Source: a virus. Taken from it: 26,308 nucleotides of DNA. Numbering within the stretch: position 1 is the stretch's first letter; each line of letters starts with the position of its first letter. The DNA is taken from positions 1 through 26,308 of the IMG/VR virus record IMGVR_UViG_3300037010_000703; one strand, written 5' to 3'. Positions 2,882 through 24,846 of the stretch are shown here, one piece after another. Made by a program: the position numbers and the translations under genes. Under the pieces are notes generated by a model. It saw only the letters and a list, made by a program, of their open reading frames with translations. It was not told the DNA's origin and did no database searches.

Positions 2882-3170
2882 AGAGTTTTACGAGAAGCTA
2901 ATTTATCAAAACGATGATAAGTTCTACCAGCTTAGACTAGTAGTTAATGAGTTCCGGGGCACTCAGTATGTCCATATTAGGAAGTACTTCCTATCTTATG
3001 AGGGTGAGTATATTCCTAGTAAAGAGGGAATTAGTATGGCAGCTTCTATTACTAATATCTATTCTCTACTGGACGGACTGTTGGAAATTGTATCTAAAGA
3101 AGAAGCCATCGAAGCAATCAATACCTATTTTAGCAACAAAATTATTGACTTGCGAAAGCCTATTGATTGA
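2874..3170 (+). CDS. PC4/Sub1-like single-stranded DNA-binding protein
   Basis: A 98-residue protein. Residues ~18-55 follow the PC4 fold pattern: strand YQLRLVVNEFRG, strand YVHIRKYFLSYEGE, then the hallmark turn YIPSKEGISM leading to a long helix (AASITNIYSLLDGLLEIVSK). In PC4 proteins this 'G.y.hiR.y....g...P.k.Gis' core makes the ssDNA-binding beta-sheet and the helix makes the dimer. A PC4 homologue is known in phage T5, where it is linked to recombination-dependent replication, so a similar role is likely. The gene overlaps the preceding one by 8 nt. Promoter P3 lies inside its last codons. Confidence 0.75.
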   Translation: MSEEFYEKLIYQNDDKFYQLRLVVNEFRGTQYVHIRKYFLSYEGEYIPSKEGISMAASITNIYSLLDGLLEIVSKEEAIEAINTYFSNKIIDLRKPID

Positions 3171-3178
3171 TGTATAAT
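3150..3178 (+). promoter_or_regulatory. Promoter P3, predicted to make a leaderless ligase mRNA
   Basis: The -35 is TTGCGA (3150-3155), the spacer 17 bp and the -10 TATAAT (3173-3178). The -35 lies inside the PC4-like gene. The expected start of transcription (7 nt after the -10) is 3185-3186, i.e. at the A of the ligase ATG, with no room for a Shine-Dalgarno. Confidence 0.75.
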
Positions 3179-3185
3179 TATTACT

Positions 3186-4139
3186 ATGAACAAAATCAAA
3201 GAATATTTAGATGAATCCTCAATTAAATACTATATGGGCGAGCCTATTATCAGCGATGAGGCGTTTGACCGTCTGGCTGAGTCTATTGGGTACTCCAAAG
3301 TCGGGTCAAAGCAGCATGAGAATGTATGCAAGCATGTATTTCCCATGTGGAGCCTACAGAAATACTACGAAGACGAAGGAAAAAAACCTTTAGAGGGTTA
3401 TAAAAACCTTTCATCGACCCCTAAGCTAGACGGGGCCGCTATCTCTATTCTATACCTAGACGGAAAGCTATCACAAGTGTTGACTCGCGGCGATGGTGTA
3501 GAAGGTAGAGATATTACTGATAAGTTCCTAGCTAGTAAGACCCTTATCCCTCATTCTATCGACTTGCTTGGTGTTTACCAAATAACTGGTGAGATTGTGG
3601 CTCCTAAGCATGTAGAGAACAGCCGTAACTACGCAGCAGGTGCTCTGAATCTGAAAGACCCAGACGAGTTCTGTACTAGAGCTATTAATTTCTTCGCTTA
3701 TGGAGTGTACCCATACCTTACTAATAGTTTTAGTCACGATATGCAGGCTCTTAGTAGACTTGGTTTTAACACAGTACAAGACCCTGAGATTCACAAAATC
3801 TACGACTGTGACGGAATTGTATTTCGCATTGATGATAACAAAACTTTCTCTGAGTTAGGGTACACAGCGTCTTTTCCAAGAGGAAGCTATGCCTTAAAAG
3901 AACGTAAAGAAGCAGTAGAAACTGAGATTCTAGCCGTTGAATGGGGCGTTGGTAAGAGTGGAAAAGTAACTCCAGTAGCTATCCTTAAACCGGTAATGAT
4001 TGGTGATAAGTGTGTAACTAGAGCTACTCTCAATAACCCTGCATTTATTGAGAACCTAGGAATTTGTATTGGCGATACCGTAGGGGTCATTTTGGGGGGC
4101 GAAATCATTCCTTGCATAACCCATAAAGTTGAAGCATAG
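3186..4139 (+). CDS. NAD-dependent DNA ligase, N-terminal subunit (adenylation and OB domains)
   Basis: A 317-residue protein matching the front half of bacterial LigA. Residues 1-45 are a short Ia domain (KYYMGEPIISDEAFDRL corresponds to the Y..D.P.ISD..YD motif that binds the NMN part of NAD+). The nucleotidyl-transfer motif KLDG has the AMP-accepting Lys80, followed by LTRGDGVEGRDIT. The C-terminus holds the start of the OB fold (IGDTVGVILGGEIIPCI). It stops where LigA would continue into the zinc finger, and that part is the next gene. T5 also has its NAD ligase in two polypeptides. It seals nicks during replication and consumes NAD+. ATG 3186 has no Shine-Dalgarno and lies at the predicted +1 of P3. 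Confidence 0.92.
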   Translation: MNKIKEYLDESSIKYYMGEPIISDEAFDRLAESIGYSKVGSKQHENVCKHVFPMWSLQKYYEDEGKKPLEGYKNLSSTPKLDGAAISILYLDGKLSQVLTRGDGVEGRDITDKFLASKTLIPHSIDLLGVYQITGEIVAPKHVENSRNYAAGALNLKDPDEFCTRAINFFAYGVYPYLTNSFSHDMQALSRLGFNTVQDPEIHKIYDCDGIVFRIDDNKTFSELGYTASFPRGSYALKERKEAVETEILAVEWGVGKSGKVTPVAILKPVMIGDKCVTRATLNNPAFIENLGICIGDTVGVILGGEIIPCITHKVEA

Positions 4140-4201: not shown

Positions 4202-4960
4202 ATGCAAAGAATCGAAATCCCGACCAAGTGCCCCTGTTGCGATTACCCACTAGAGCTGGTAAAAGATCAACTGTTCTGCAGAAATACTGCCTGTAGTGCT
4301 CAGTTAGGTAAAAAACTGGAGCATTTCACTAAAACCCTTAGCATCAAAGGCTTTGGCCCTAAGACGATTGAGAAACTTAATCTCAGTGAATTGACAGAAC
4401 TATTTTATCTAGACCATGATGAAGTTTACTCAGCTCTTGGGGAGAAAGTAGGGTCTAAATTGCTAGACGAGATCGAGCGTGCTAAAGGTGCCTCCCTTGA
4501 CGTAGTAATTGCTAGTTTTAGTATTCCATTAGTCGGAGCAACCGCAAGCAAGAAGATTGCAGCTATAGTATCGAGTATTGATGAAATTAATCAGGAAACC
4601 TGTAAAATAGCAGGTCTAGGGACTAAGGTAACAGAGAATCTAGTAAATTGGGTTCAAACAGAGTACCAAGAGCTAAAAGAATTCTTGCCCTTTACTTTTG
4701 AGGGCAAAATGACAGTGGATAGTCCAAACGCTAAACGTGTATGTATTACCGGTAAATTGAAGTCCTATAAAAAGAAATCCGACGCAGAGGGGGCGCTCCG
4801 AGCAGCAGGATTCATTCTAGTAGACTCAGTAACTAAAACAACTGATTATCTAGTAGACGAAGAGGATAAAGGTTCGACGAAACGCGACAAGGCCGTATCC
4901 TACGGTATAACAATAATTAACGATCTTAATGATCTATTGAAAGAAAAAACAAATGACTGA
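4202..4960 (+). CDS. NAD-dependent DNA ligase, C-terminal subunit (Zn finger, HhH, BRCT)
   Basis: A 252-residue protein matching the back half of LigA. It has a four-cysteine zinc finger (Cys10-x2-Cys13, Cys26-x4-Cys31, with CRNTACSAQ), helix-hairpin-helix repeats (SIKGFGPKTIEKL at ~47-59, then VGATASKKIAAI and AGLGTKVTENL) and a BRCT domain from ~172 to the end (RVCITGKLKSYKKKSDAEGA, DYLVDEEDKGSTK RDKA). It should bind nicked DNA and complete the ligase with the protein at 3186. There is no in-frame continuity with the N-half: a stop, 62 nt and promoter P4 lie between them. This is therefore a true two-subunit arrangement as in T5. It overlaps the next gene by 8 nt. Confidence 0.92.
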   Translation: MQRIEIPTKCPCCDYPLELVKDQLFCRNTACSAQLGKKLEHFTKTLSIKGFGPKTIEKLNLSELTELFYLDHDEVYSALGEKVGSKLLDEIERAKGASLDVVIASFSIPLVGATASKKIAAIVSSIDEINQETCKIAGLGTKVTENLVNWVQTEYQELKEFLPFTFEGKMTVDSPNAKRVCITGKLKSYKKKSDAEGALRAAGFILVDSVTKTTDYLVDEEDKGSTKRDKAVSYGITIINDLNDLLKEKTND

Positions 4961-12849: not shown

Positions 12850-13866
12850 ATGCAAAAACCAACACTCGGAATCTTCATTGGTAGATTCCAGCCACTTCAT
12901 GCAGGACATAGAGAAGTTATTAGACAAGTATCTAAGGAAGTTCAGAAGACTAGCGGTCTAGGGCTTGTACTAATTGGTTCAGCTAATGTGGCTAGATCAG
13001 TTAAGAACCCTTGGACATTACAGGAACGTCGTATAGAACTTAGAAACTTTCTATTTCATGAAGGTATTACTAATGTTAATCTTAGTTGTCTTAATGACTA
13101 TAAGTACTCTGATAGCCAATGGTTAAATGATGTAACAAGCATCGTCAATGAGTATAACGCTAATGATACTTATACTGTAAAACTCTTTGGGTTTGCTAAA
13201 GAAGGTAATGACTATCTTGATTGGTTCCCTCAGTACGAGTTTATCAATGTTACTACACCTTACGATGTATGCTCTACAGATATTCGTGAGCAATGGTTTC
13301 AGAAAGAATCTCACCGTTTTGTAAATAGTGTTATAGCTGACTGGGACTATTTCAAGAAAGAGAAAGCTCTTTTTAGGGATTACCCTTTCAAAGAGACCCT
13401 TAACTTCAACTGTGCTGATGCTATTCTTGAATGCTGTGGGCATATTCTTCTTATCAAGCGCGGAGCCGCTCCAGGTAAAGGTAATTGGGCTTTACCGGGT
13501 GGCTTTAAGAATGCTAATGAAACCTTCCAAGACTGTGCAATCCGTGAGCTAATGGAAGAAACTAATGTACGAGTACCTGAGAAGGTTCTTAGAGGCTCTA
13601 TAGTTTCTAGTAAACTATTTGACTCTCCCACCCGTGGTCAAGGCATCCCTAGAAACACTCTCGCGATACACATTAAAGTACTTGCTGGCGCTGACGGTAG
13701 TCTACCTAGAGCTAAGGGCATGGATGATGCAGTAGAAGCAAAATGGTTTCCTATCTCTGTAATTATGAATAATATTAGTATGCATGATGACCATGCTGCT
13801 ATTATTTCCACAATGTGTGGCGTGCTTCCTTTACCTGCGCACGTAAATCCTAGGTTCTTTAATTAG
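12850..13866 (+). CDS. nadM: Bifunctional NMN adenylyltransferase / Nudix hydrolase
   Basis: A 338-residue fusion. Residues 1-~170 are a nucleotidyltransferase of NadM type: GRFQPLHAGH (11-20) is the (H/G)xGH-type ATP site and STDIR (142-146) is the ISTxxR-like motif. It joins NMN and ATP to make NAD+. Residues ~185-330 are a Nudix domain: the Nudix box spans 218-240 with Gly218, Glu224, Arg232-Glu233 and Glu236-Glu237, but the usual late Gly is Asn239. The family suggests ADP-ribose or NAD(H)-related hydrolysis. Similar fusions are known in Synechocystis and vibriophage KVP40. Shine-Dalgarno AAGGAG 7 nt upstream. Cytosolic. It works with the NAMPT gene 13 nt downstream. Confidence 0.92.
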   Translation: MQKPTLGIFIGRFQPLHAGHREVIRQVSKEVQKTSGLGLVLIGSANVARSVKNPWTLQERRIELRNFLFHEGITNVNLSCLNDYKYSDSQWLNDVTSIVNEYNANDTYTVKLFGFAKEGNDYLDWFPQYEFINVTTPYDVCSTDIREQWFQKESHRFVNSVIADWDYFKKEKALFRDYPFKETLNFNCADAILECCGHILLIKRGAAPGKGNWALPGGFKNANETFQDCAIRELMEETNVRVPEKVLRGSIVSSKLFDSPTRGQGIPRNTLAIHIKVLAGADGSLPRAKGMDDAVEAKWFPISVIMNNISMHDDHAAIISTMCGVLPLPAHVNPRFFN

Positions 13867-13879
13867 TAAGGAGTTTACT

Positions 13880-15313
13880 ATGAAATCAAATCTTAATTCA
13901 ATCATGTTGGATACTGACAGTTATAAAGTCAGTATGTGGAAACAATATCCAGAGGGTACCGAGTATGTTTACTCCTACATTGAAGCCCGTGGAGGAGTTT
14001 ACTCTGAAACGGAATTTTTGGGTGTACAGGCTTTAGCACAGTACCTAGCAACCCCAATTACTCAAGAGCAAATTGACTATGCTGATCGTATATGGTCATT
14101 ACACGGTGAACCATTCAACAAAGCTGGTTGGCAATACATACTCGATGTGCATAATGGACGATTGCCTCTTCGAATTCGAGCTGCTAAAGAAGGACTTATT
14201 ATTCCAACCAGAAATGTACTCTGTACCATTGAAAACACAGACCCTAAGTGCTATTGGCTCACTACCTGGGTGGAGACATCAGCACTTAGGGCTATTTGGT
14301 ACCCTTCAACAGTCGGTACAATCTCGTGGAATATCAAACAAGTTATTATAAAATATTTGGAGAAATCTGGTGACCCTAGCTCTATTGGTTTTAAACTTCA
14401 CGATTTCGGCGCTCGTGGTGTATCTAGTAATGAGAGCGCCGGCATTGGTGGAGCAGCGCACCTTGTTAATTTCATGGGCACTGATACTATGTCTGGTGTG
14501 CTCCACATTATGGATATTTACGGTGGGGACGTGTGCGGATTCTCAATCCCAGCCGCAGAACACAGCACAATCATAAGCTGGGGTCGTGAAAACGAAGTAG
14601 CCGCATACCGTAATATGGTTAAGCAGTTCGGTGGAAATGGAAAGATTCTAGCAGTTGTGTCTGATTCCTATGATATTTTCAACGCTTGCAAACTATGGGG
14701 GACGGAACTAATAGATGATGTTATTGCTAGTGGGGCAACAGTAGTTATTCGCCCTGACTCTGGCGACCCTATTGAAGTTATGCCAAAGATGATGGCAATT
14801 CTGGAACACTACTACGGTGCCCCTAAGAATACTAAAGGCTACAAAGTACTAAATAACGTACGGGTAATCTGGGGAGATGGTATCAATGCAATGTCATTAG
14901 AAACTATCCTGCGCACAATGGTTGATTTGCATGGCTATAGTGCCGATAACTTTGCCTTTGGCATGGGAGGGGGCCTACTGCAGCAATTGAACCGTGATAC
15001 TCAGCAATGGGCTATGAAGTGTTCGGCCGTAGGTATTCGTGAGGTAGTATGGGATGGGTTTGGTAATTATACACGAGAATTAGTATGGCTCGATGTATTC
15101 AAAGACCCTATTACTGACCCTGGTAAGCGTTCAAAGCGTGGTCGTGTTACTCTTTGGACTAGTGGGGGAGAATACCAGTCCTCTATTACACAGCCTATGA
15201 ATTGGACTGATAAGGGTATTCTTTGGGAAGATGCAATGGAAACTTACTTTGATAATGGTGAAGTACAGTTTACTCAAACATTTGAGCAAGTTCGATCTAA
15301 TAGTAATAAATAA
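13880..15313 (+). CDS. nadV: Nicotinamide phosphoribosyltransferase (NAMPT)
   Basis: A 477-residue protein close to human NAMPT in length. It makes NMN from nicotinamide and PRPP, and NMN then feeds the adenylyltransferase encoded just upstream. Conserved stretches are DTDSYKVSMWKQYPEGTEYV at the N-terminus (10-30), FKLHDFGARGVSS (171-183), the phospho-accepting His in PAAEHST (His228), VSDSYDIFNACKLWG, RPDSGDP (291-297) that binds the phosphoribosyl part, and FGMGGGLLQQLNRDT. All core motifs are intact, so it should be active. The Shine-Dalgarno and spacer (aaggagtttactatg) are almost identical to those of the upstream gene. NAMPT is found in many large phages, including vibriophages. Confidence 0.95.
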   Translation: MKSNLNSIMLDTDSYKVSMWKQYPEGTEYVYSYIEARGGVYSETEFLGVQALAQYLATPITQEQIDYADRIWSLHGEPFNKAGWQYILDVHNGRLPLRIRAAKEGLIIPTRNVLCTIENTDPKCYWLTTWVETSALRAIWYPSTVGTISWNIKQVIIKYLEKSGDPSSIGFKLHDFGARGVSSNESAGIGGAAHLVNFMGTDTMSGVLHIMDIYGGDVCGFSIPAAEHSTIISWGRENEVAAYRNMVKQFGGNGKILAVVSDSYDIFNACKLWGTELIDDVIASGATVVIRPDSGDPIEVMPKMMAILEHYYGAPKNTKGYKVLNNVRVIWGDGINAMSLETILRTMVDLHGYSADNFAFGMGGGLLQQLNRDTQQWAMKCSAVGIREVVWDGFGNYTRELVWLDVFKDPITDPGKRSKRGRVTLWTSGGEYQSSITQPMNWTDKGILWEDAMETYFDNGEVQFTQTFEQVRSNSNK

Positions 15314-21752: not shown

Positions 21753-22058
21753 ATGAATGAACAACAAATTGAACAAGAGATTCAGGCTAAAGGGCTTAAT
21801 GCTCCTAGACTAACCCCTACACTTATTGATGGCTGTATCACTGAAACTACATATACAGTACTACCTAGTGGCAAAGTTATGGTATGCGAGCTAACATTAG
21901 TTAATGGATTCACAGTACGCGGAGAAGCTGCTACCGTTAGTAAAGAGAACTTTAACGATGAAATTGGCAAAACTATTAGTTTTAAAAATGCTCGTGAAAA
22001 GATTTGGGAACTTGAAGGGTATCTACTACAACAACGGGTATTTGAAGGAAAGAACTAA
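21753..22058 (+). CDS. N4 gp49 / Sf6 gp66-family phage protein
   Basis: A 101-residue protein. The pattern CITETTYTVLPSGKVMVCELTLVNGFTVRGEA, then VSKENFNDEIGKTISFKNAREKIWELEGYLL, matches the small conserved phage family named after N4 gp49 and Sf6 gene 66. The family has no established enzymatic function. AAGGAA lies about 8 nt upstream of the ATG. Its stop overlaps the RNR start (TAATG), so the two are translationally coupled. Confidence 0.85.
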   Translation: MNEQQIEQEIQAKGLNAPRLTPTLIDGCITETTYTVLPSGKVMVCELTLVNGFTVRGEAATVSKENFNDEIGKTISFKNAREKIWELEGYLLQQRVFEGKN

Positions 22059-22493
22059 TGGATAAAAAAGCACTATCAGATATTACAGTATTTAACAAGT
22101 ACGCCCGATTTACTAAAGAGAAGAATCGAAGAGAGAATTGGAACGAGATTGTTACTCGTAATGCTAATATGCACAAGGAGAAGTATCCTTGGATGAAGGA
22201 GCAGATTGACGATGTTTATCGTAAGTTTGTCTTTACTAAAAAGGTGTTACCTAGTATGCGGTCACTCCAGTTTGGCGGAAGACCTATTCTTATGGCAGAG
22301 AACCGAATCTTTAACTGTGCGTATGCCCCCGCAGAAAGCACAAAGTTCTTTAGTGAATTAATGTTTCTGCTCCTAGGCGGGACAGGTATGGGATACTCCG
22401 TCCAACGTCGTCACACTGATAAACTCCCTAAAATCAAGACTCCTGAATCAGATGAAGAGTATAAGTATCAAGTTCAAGATTCTATTGTTGGGT
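22058..22493 (+). CDS. nrdJ: Class II ribonucleotide reductase, exon 1
   Basis: Encodes residues 1-145 and the first base of codon 146 of an adenosylcobalamin-dependent ribonucleotide reductase (monomeric RTPR type); the rest is 23426-24846. Visible features are VLPSMRSLQFGG, NRIFNCAYAP with Cys87 (equivalent to the redox Cys119 of the Lactobacillus enzyme), and FSELMFLLLGGTGMGYSVQ. The exon ends SIVG plus T, and the intron's first bases AA complete a TAA stop (22493-22495), so unspliced RNA gives a 145-residue fragment. The joined gene is 1857 nt, 618 residues, in frame. It makes deoxyribonucleotides for phage replication. Confidence 0.92.
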
Positions 22494-23425
22494 AAACCTC
22501 TGCTCAACTAAAACGCATTTAATTGCTGGAAACCCCTTAGAGCCTAAAGCACTACAACGAACCCTGTCTAAGGGAGACGTGAATGTTTGAAAAGATTTAG
22601 GATTGGGCAATCAGCAGCTAAGCATGATAAGGAAATTCATGAAAGTTCAACGATCAGTCAGTAATGACGTAGACGGAAGCAATTCCCTCGAAACGGTGCG
22701 CATCTATTTTTATGCACTTAAAGACCCATTTACGTTAAAAATACGTTATATTGGGCAAACAGTAGCTCCAGATAATAGGTATAGAAATCATATATACGAA
22801 GCAAAAAAGAATAATAAAAACCATAAAGAAAGATGGATTATTCAACTTCTTCGTAAGAATGCTAAACCTATAATGGAAATACTATGGGAAGATGTAATGT
22901 CAGCTAAAGAGGCTAATGACTTCGAAACTGATATGATACAGTTCTATAAAGACGAGGGTTGTGATTTAACAAACTCAGAGGATAGGGCCCGCAATACTCC
23001 TATAGTAGTAACTACACCAGTTTACCAATTCAGTTTACTGGGAGAATTTATAGCAAAATTTCCAAACGCTAATCAGGCTATGCTTATTACAGGTATTAAT
23101 GATGCTGCAATTGGAGAAGTATGTAGAAACCCAAATAAAGTAGGTAATAATAGCCGTGGTGGGTTTCTATGGTCTTATAATGATATACCTAATAAGGCAT
23201 ATGATAAGCCTAAAAGTACCTCTAAAAAGACAGTACAACTAAATACAGAGGGTATTTTTCTAGCAGAGTTTGCCTCCGCTAGAGAAGCATCTAAAACAAC
23301 AGGTATTTGCTATAAAAGAATTAGTGCAGCCATAACAGGGCGTCAGAAAACAGCTGGCGGCTTTGTGTGGAAGTTAGATGAAGATATGATCTAATCCTAC
23401 TATAAATAGTAGGTATGCGTCACAG
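22494..23425 (+). mobile_element. Group I intron in the RNR gene
   Basis: A 932-nt intron with boundaries set by base pairing. P1: exon GTTGGGT (22487-22493) pairs with GCTCAAC (22502-22508), giving the conserved U-G at the 5' splice site. P10: CTCT (22498-22501) pairs with exon 2 GGAG (23426-23429). The intron ends in G (23425). P4 candidate: TGCTG (22524-22528) with CAGCA (22612-22616). P7: GATCA (22652-22656) with TGATC (23387-23391), inside typical R (gttcaacgatca) and S (aagatatgatc) strings. P9: CCTACTA/TAGTAGG (23396-23402, 23407-23413). Splicing restores GWSDAVK, a conserved class II RNR sequence. The homing endonuclease ORF fills the P7-P8 region. Confidence 0.93.
22624..23394 (+). 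CDS. GIY-YIG homing endonuclease in the intron
   Basis: About 256 residues from ATG 22624. The frame is open from TTG 22603, and later starts (ATG 22639, GTG 22696) are possible because the first ~24 codons overlap the intron core. The GIY-YIG domain starts RIYFYAL... and has RYIGQT, an Arg-containing helix (NRYRNHIYEA) and the metal-binding Glu in NDFETDMIQFY. Two NUMOD1-like repeats follow (VYQFSLLGEFIAKFPNANQA ... GGFLW; VQLNTEGIFLAEFASAREAS ... GGFVW), which bind DNA. It would cut intronless RNR genes and so spread the intron. Its last codons form the 3' strand of P7. Confidence 0.88.
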   Translation: MIRKFMKVQRSVSNDVDGSNSLETVRIYFYALKDPFTLKIRYIGQTVAPDNRYRNHIYEAKKNNKNHKERWIIQLLRKNAKPIMEILWEDVMSAKEANDFETDMIQFYKDEGCDLTNSEDRARNTPIVVTTPVYQFSLLGEFIAKFPNANQAMLITGINDAAIGEVCRNPNKVGNNSRGGFLWSYNDIPNKAYDKPKSTSKKTVQLNTEGIFLAEFASAREASKTTGICYKRISAAITGRQKTAGGFVWKLDEDMI

Positions 23426-24846
23426 GGAGTGACGCTGTTAAAGTTGTTTGTAAAGCTTTCTTTAACGCGGGTACTTTACCTATTTTTGATTATAGGGACA
23501 TTCGTGATAAAGGTGCGGAATTAATCACTACTGGTGGGCAAGCTCCCGGGCCGGAACCACTTCGTATCTGTATTGAACAGTTAACTAGCCTATTACGTAA
23601 TGCAGTAGGACGTAAACTAGAACCAATAGAAGTGCATGATATGGCTTGTATCATAGCTGATGCTGTTCTAGCTGGGGGAATTCGCCGAGCCGCTATGATT
23701 GCTCTGTTTGACCGCTTTGACGAAGAAATGCTTAACTGTAAGTCTGGTGAATGGTGGAAAACTAACCCGGCGCGTGCTCGTGCTAATAATAGTGCTATGC
23801 TGCTTCGTGGCTCAATATCAGAGATTGAGTTCTACGAACTTATGGAGCGAGTAGAGGATTCCGGCTGCGGTGAGCCAGGTATCTACTGGACTAATAATCT
23901 GGACTGGGGTACTAACCCTTGCTGTGAGATTGCACTACGTCCTTATCAGATGTGTAACCTAACAGAGATTAATGCAGGAGCCATTAGTACGCAACGTCAG
24001 TTTAACGAAGCTGCTGAAGCTGCTGCGTTTATTGGTACGTTGCAAGCTGGATACACGGACTTCCACTACTTAAACCCTAAGTGGCGCCTAGCATGCGAAA
24101 AAGAAGCACTACTTGGTGTATCTATGACAGGTATTGCTAGTGGTACTATTGAAAAGTTAGACATGGAATGGGCCTCACAGTGTGTGGTAGATACAAATGC
24201 TAAAATTGCTAAAGAACTTGGTATCAATCCCGCTGCTCGTAGTACTTGTGTTAAGCCTGCTGGCACTACTAGCCTTGTACTTGGTACTAGCAGTGGTATA
24301 CATGCTTGGCATGCTGATTACTATATTCGTAGGATGCGTGCTGGTAAAGACGAAGCGTTAGCGCAGTACATGATGAAAGCTGCTCCTGGACTAGTTGAGC
24401 AAGATGTTACTAAAGAAAATCAAGTAGTTCTTAGCTTTCCACAAGCTGCTCCAGTAGGTGCTGTGACCCGTCACGAACCTATGATGTCTCTATTAGAGCG
24501 TGTCAAGAACGTATCTATCAAGTGGGTTGCTAATGGACATATAAGTGGTACGAACCAGCATAATGTTAGCTGTACCATTAGTGTTAAGCCAGACGAGTGG
24601 GAAGAATTAGCCATCTGGATGTGGGAGAATAGAGAATACTATAATGGTATCTCTGTATTACCCTTCTATGGGGCTGAAGCATACCCACAGTTACCATTTG
24701 AAGATATTACTAAAGAGCAGTACGAGACTATGCTTCCATTACTAGAAGGTATCGATATTAGTAAGGTATTTGAAGAAGATGGTAGTAGTGTAGACTTGGC
24801 TGCTGAACTGGCTTGTGCTGGCGGTGGTTGCGAAATTAAGTTCTAA
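23426..24846 (+). CDS. nrdJ: Class II ribonucleotide reductase, exon 2
   Basis: Encodes the rest of codon 146 (Trp) to residue 618. The active-site loop NPCCEIALRPYQMCNLTEIN holds the thiyl-radical Cys311 (equivalent to Cys408 of Lactobacillus RTPR), Glu313 and the redox Cys322; Asn309 is also conserved. Other signatures are GGQAPGPEPL, LAGGIRRAAMIALF, ARANNSAM, the phosphate/radical segment PAGTTSLVLGTSSG and a C-terminal CAGGGC (Cys609, Cys614) that would be reduced by glutaredoxin or thioredoxin. The enzyme needs host-supplied cobalamin and no separate radical subunit. A GTG at 23632 starts a shorter frame but is not a gene start. A bidirectional terminator follows directly. Confidence 0.94.

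Follow-up and report, generated by a model that had tools for sequence, protein, structure and literature searches.

Among the nucleotide-metabolism genes of phages, the reductase gene is the one most often interrupted by introns (PMC3653736), and by 2009 the curated RNRdb entries for group I introns of reductase genes numbered more than 100 (PMC2795772). Most group I introns carry an in-frame stop just within the 5' splice site, and the overlap of an endonuclease ORF with the core helices has been described as 'core creep', including a two-sided case with the ORF in P8 (PMC3073962). The introns of Bastillevirinae phages are likewise mostly IA-like and hold a nuclease in a loop (PMC11878797). 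The locus analysed here lies in a window of 26,308 nucleotides, a 26-kb IMG/VR record of an uncultured phage, in which a class II ribonucleotide reductase gene is split on the plus strand by an insert with a GIY-YIG/NUMOD1 endonuclease ORF in P8. It was compared with the closest described introns. The Staphylococcus phage Twort nrdE intron (MT151386) is also a group IA intron of a reductase gene with a nuclease-coding insert, and its core is 78% identical over 102 nt to the window intron; however, Twort has a class Ib nrdE, an HNH endonuclease and a different insertion site. The T4 td intron with I-TevI shares a phage GIY-YIG ORF running over core helices including P7 (PMC3073962), but that ORF lies in the P6 loop, overlaps the core at its 3' end only and has thymidylate synthase as host gene. 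The Bacillus thuringiensis nrdF intron is again in a reductase gene, with a GIY-YIG ORF over P6a, P7 and P7.1 (PMC3073962), whereas its ORF is placed in P6a and the host is a class I small subunit. The Synechococcus lividus LSU rDNA intron also has a P8 ORF with two-sided overlap of P6, P7, P3, P8, P9.0 and P9 (PMC3073962), although it belongs to an rRNA gene and the LAGLIDADG family. The Vibrio phage ICP1 intron (HQ641349) has the common core and the same GAUCA/UGAUC form of P7, but is only about 72% identical over a part of the core and has another host locus and ORF. In the open-access literature searched, no specific report of a group I intron in a class II reductase was found, nor a description of the combination of class II host, GIY-YIG/NUMOD1 protein, P8 site and two-sided overlap. 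The intron is thus well supported but ordinary, belonging to a well-known class of mobile elements in phages.

The original prediction had placed a group I intron at 22494-23425 with splice sites fixed to the base, and the empty sites, orthologues, core homology and covariation all agree with it. Exon 1 (22058-22493, PHROG 367 ribonucleotide reductase) ends in GTTGGGT with T22493 as the last base. The 932-nt intron runs from AAACC at 22494 to CACAG, closing on the predicted terminal G at 23425, and exon 2 (23426-24846) starts with GGAGTGACG. Joining of the two exons reproduced the expected reductase frame of 618 residues without any stop, and the conserved GWSDAVK was restored where intronless relatives encode GW(S/A)DA(V/I)K or a close variant. 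The predicted stop is equally present: without splicing, T22493 and the AA of the intron are read as a UAA, and the open frame is only 145 residues long. The intron splits the Trp codon of a GW motif which is conserved in relatives and aligns with the GW of PDB 1L1L. If the cut is shifted by one base the match to the empty-site alleles is lost, and only the cut at 22493/23426 gives GGGT joined to GGAG. The main reading, to which we give a probability of about 0.96, is that the Trp codon of the class II reductase GW motif is interrupted by a mobile, phage IA-type group I intron, which would work by the mechanism proposed below. It is very improbable that the insert is a degenerate, non-splicing remnant leaving the reductase either dead or working as two fragments. 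A phage reductase that works in two fragments is known from Aeh1 nrdA (PMC3653736), but here the 145-residue piece reaches barely into the GW motif, and no start codon lies near the 5' end of exon 2. Moreover, both exons are open in frame and similar to intact relatives, and none of the proposed pairs of the fold is broken in the three copies, which have diverged from each other and show compensatory changes.

The position of the intron was compared with 80 related reductase loci from IMG/VR. About 75 of these relatives have no intron and their frame continues through the GW motif; the loci that span the junction are nearly all collinear. The exact empty site, TTGTTGGGT directly followed by GGAGTGA, was found in L034, whose reductase protein is 90% identical to that of the window, and L021 has the empty target GTTGGGT followed by GGAGTGA as well. 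Two further uncultured phages, L033 and L023, carry a 932-nt intron at the identical base, so that the known carriers are three together with the window. An intein or some other protein-level insertion in the reductase was also weighed, as L033 and L034 are close relatives with intein-like insertions in the same gene at another site. This alternative has a very small probability and is ruled out by frame and fold: a stop codon closes the reading frame at the junction, the insertion point lies within a codon, and the inserted sequence contains a complete group I core whose P1 and P10 fit the exons.

The fold of the group I intron was traced helix by helix. P1 (22487-22493/22502-22508) is a helix of 7 bp having the predicted U-G pair, U22493.G22502, at the 5' splice site. 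P10, also part of the original prediction, is formed by 22498-22501 of the internal guide with 23426-23429 of exon 2 (4 bp, including one G.U). Of 200,000 shuffles of the 30 bases at the start of the intron, 98 gave a P1 of 7 bp or more with the junction U.G together with an adjoining P10 of 4 bp or more. P3 pairs 22514-22519 with 22695-22700, and its one varying pair still pairs among the orthologues. P4 (22523-22529/22611-22617), P5 (22534-22536/22605-22607) and P5a (22543-22548/22596-22601) show covariation in 13 phage introns. The pairs of the P6a hairpin (22623-22641) are invariant in the three orthologues, and its loop contains an AGGA ahead of the endonuclease ATG. The predicted P7, the guanosine-binding helix, is made of GAUCA at 22652-22656 and UGAUC at 23387-23391 and has two double changes among the 13 introns; its 3' strand corresponds to the last codons of the endonuclease. 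One compensatory change each was found in P7.1 (22657-22660/22665-22668) and P7.2 (22675-22678/22683-22686). In P8 the strand CAUCUA at 22701-22706 pairs with 23375-23380, with a compensatory A22702G/T23379C in L023. P9, predicted too, is a 7-bp hairpin at 23396-23413 which agrees with both the Rfam match and the fold.

A covariance-model search had been suggested along with the prediction. The Rfam group I model (RF00028) matched the 5' half with 36.7 bits (E 1.6e-7) and the 3' half with 19.5 bits, both below the gathering score of 50. The scan of the whole window at gathering scores gave no match, and the matches appeared when the region was scanned alone. The coding insert of ~670 nt in P8 is a plausible reason why neither match alone attains the gathering score. 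The orthologues scored 38.9 and 32.0 bits with the same model, and the empty allele L034 gave no match to it. Sequences with about 70-80% identity to parts of the core occur in 177 phage records, the Twort nrdE intron being one of them. A composite of P4, P5, P5a and P7 from 13 phage introns was assembled by hand around conserved anchors; 97.9% of its cells pair, and both sides have changed in 11 of the 22 pairs. This level was reached by none of 500 shuffles, and the slid control did not come near it either. The count does not include P3, for which the pairing strands of the distant introns had been picked by eye. The P7 form of the window is shared with ICP1, and the other introns have GACUA/UAGUC. 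Within the three orthologues all 64 proposed pairs are kept, with the compensatory changes in P7.1, P7.2 and P8; here the shuffle control gave 22 of 500, which is weak alone with three sequences. Rfam and covariation thus together indicate the group I core of P3, P4, P5, P6, P7 and P8, of which P6 proper is partly resolved. With the U.G in P1 at the 5' splice site, the terminal G and the frame-restoring excision, the sequence data support a group I intron at 22494-23425, and the P7.1/P7.2 hairpins and the homology to phage IA cores place it in the phage group IA, where it is probably IA2-like.

Three features were absent from the original prediction, namely the GIY-YIG endonuclease encoded in the loop of P8, the signs of a recent transfer and the class II identity of the reductase. 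The endonuclease ORF (22639-23394) encodes 251 residues with matches to PF01541 (GIY-YIG, 23.6 bits against a cut-off of 22.6) and to a C-terminal PF07453 (NUMOD1, 30.5 bits against 22.8). Its likeliest start is the ATG at 22639 with the AGGA upstream, of which one base is missing in L033; GTG at 22696 or TTG at 22603 may serve instead. The stop codon (23392-23394) comes directly after the 3' strand of P7, and the frame therefore covers P7, P7.1, P7.2, the 3' strand of P3 and both strands of P8. In L023 the A22702G change in P8 replaces Ile by Val and is matched by the synonymous T23379C. Judged from a dN/dS of 0.08-0.20, the ORF is under purifying selection. No relatives of the endonuclease were found in bacterial and archaeal genomes, and in viral contigs only the two other carriers contain one. 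Annotated phages gave distant or partial matches only, and the sequence search of PDB gave no meaningful match.

The mobility of the intron was evaluated from its divergence relative to that of the exons. Between the window and L033 the intron is 96.0% identical whereas the exons are 77-81% (about 79%) identical, and between the window and L023 the values are 87.7% and about 73%. The dS for the window and L033 is 0.126 in the endonuclease ORF against about 2.0 in the exons. Since the intron is closer than the exons, it has moved between diverged phages after the flanking genes had diverged, and these values indicate a recent transfer of the intron between phages. From this we would naturally infer homing by the encoded nuclease.

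The host gene is, on its sequence matches, a class II, adenosylcobalamin-dependent reductase of the monomeric RTPR type. The match covers RTPR together with the active-site regions, and TIGR02505 (RTPR) is the best family at 256.8 bits, against an equivalog cut-off of 340. The reductases of L033 and L034, each about 90% identical to that of the window, contain two different intein-like insertions (about 2945-4000 and about 2968-4008, respectively) at neighbouring positions of the NPCCEIAL active-site region; the window has no insert there, and L033 has both the group I intron and an intein-like insert in its reductase. Split class II reductases also occur in the cultured phages CRP-118 (L100, 1349-1603) and KLEP7 (L101, 1144-1378), each with an unexplained gap of about 230-250 nt close to the NPCCEIAL region. 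These split nrdJ genes were considered as relatives of the present case and rejected, being split near residue 300-312 and not 145 and giving no RNA-family match. Reductases about 60% identical to that of the window are annotated as 'recombinase' in Vibrio phage VPs20 (OP056089, 21873-23666) and Oceanospirillum phage PD0307 (OL658619, 38128-39891), which is probably a misannotation. Elsewhere in the window, an NAD-dependent DNA ligase is present as two ORFs, 3186-4139 (adenylation and OB) and 4202-4960 (HhH and BRCT), and adjacent NAD-salvage genes at 12850-15313 encode a nucleotidyltransferase-Nudix fusion and a nicotinamide phosphoribosyltransferase.

In the proposed mechanism the ribozyme core would fold within the transcript and a guanosine bound in P7 would attack after U22493 in P1. 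The freed exon 1 would then attack after the terminal G23425 with the help of P10, joining the exons so that the 618-residue enzyme can be made. Ribosomes would be kept out of the core by the junction UAA. In a co-infection, the GIY-YIG/NUMOD1 protein would cut the intronless reductase allele of another phage near its empty site, and the cut allele would receive a copy of the intron by recombination. As the ORF extends over P7, P3, P8 and the 3' strand of P7, translation of the endonuclease and folding of the ribozyme should be mutually exclusive on any one RNA. A more speculative extension, which we regard as rather doubtful, is that this constitutes a real switch, with every RNA molecule committed either to translation of the endonuclease or to splicing for the B12-dependent reductase, and that perhaps no group I intron had been described in a phage class II reductase before.

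With these results the annotation of a split reductase gene is corrected, and the phage class II reductases gain a mobile intron. The three occupied alleles and the close empty ones are a clean natural system in which to test GIY-YIG homing, and the same alleles are suited to the study of one sequence acting as both coding region and ribozyme core.
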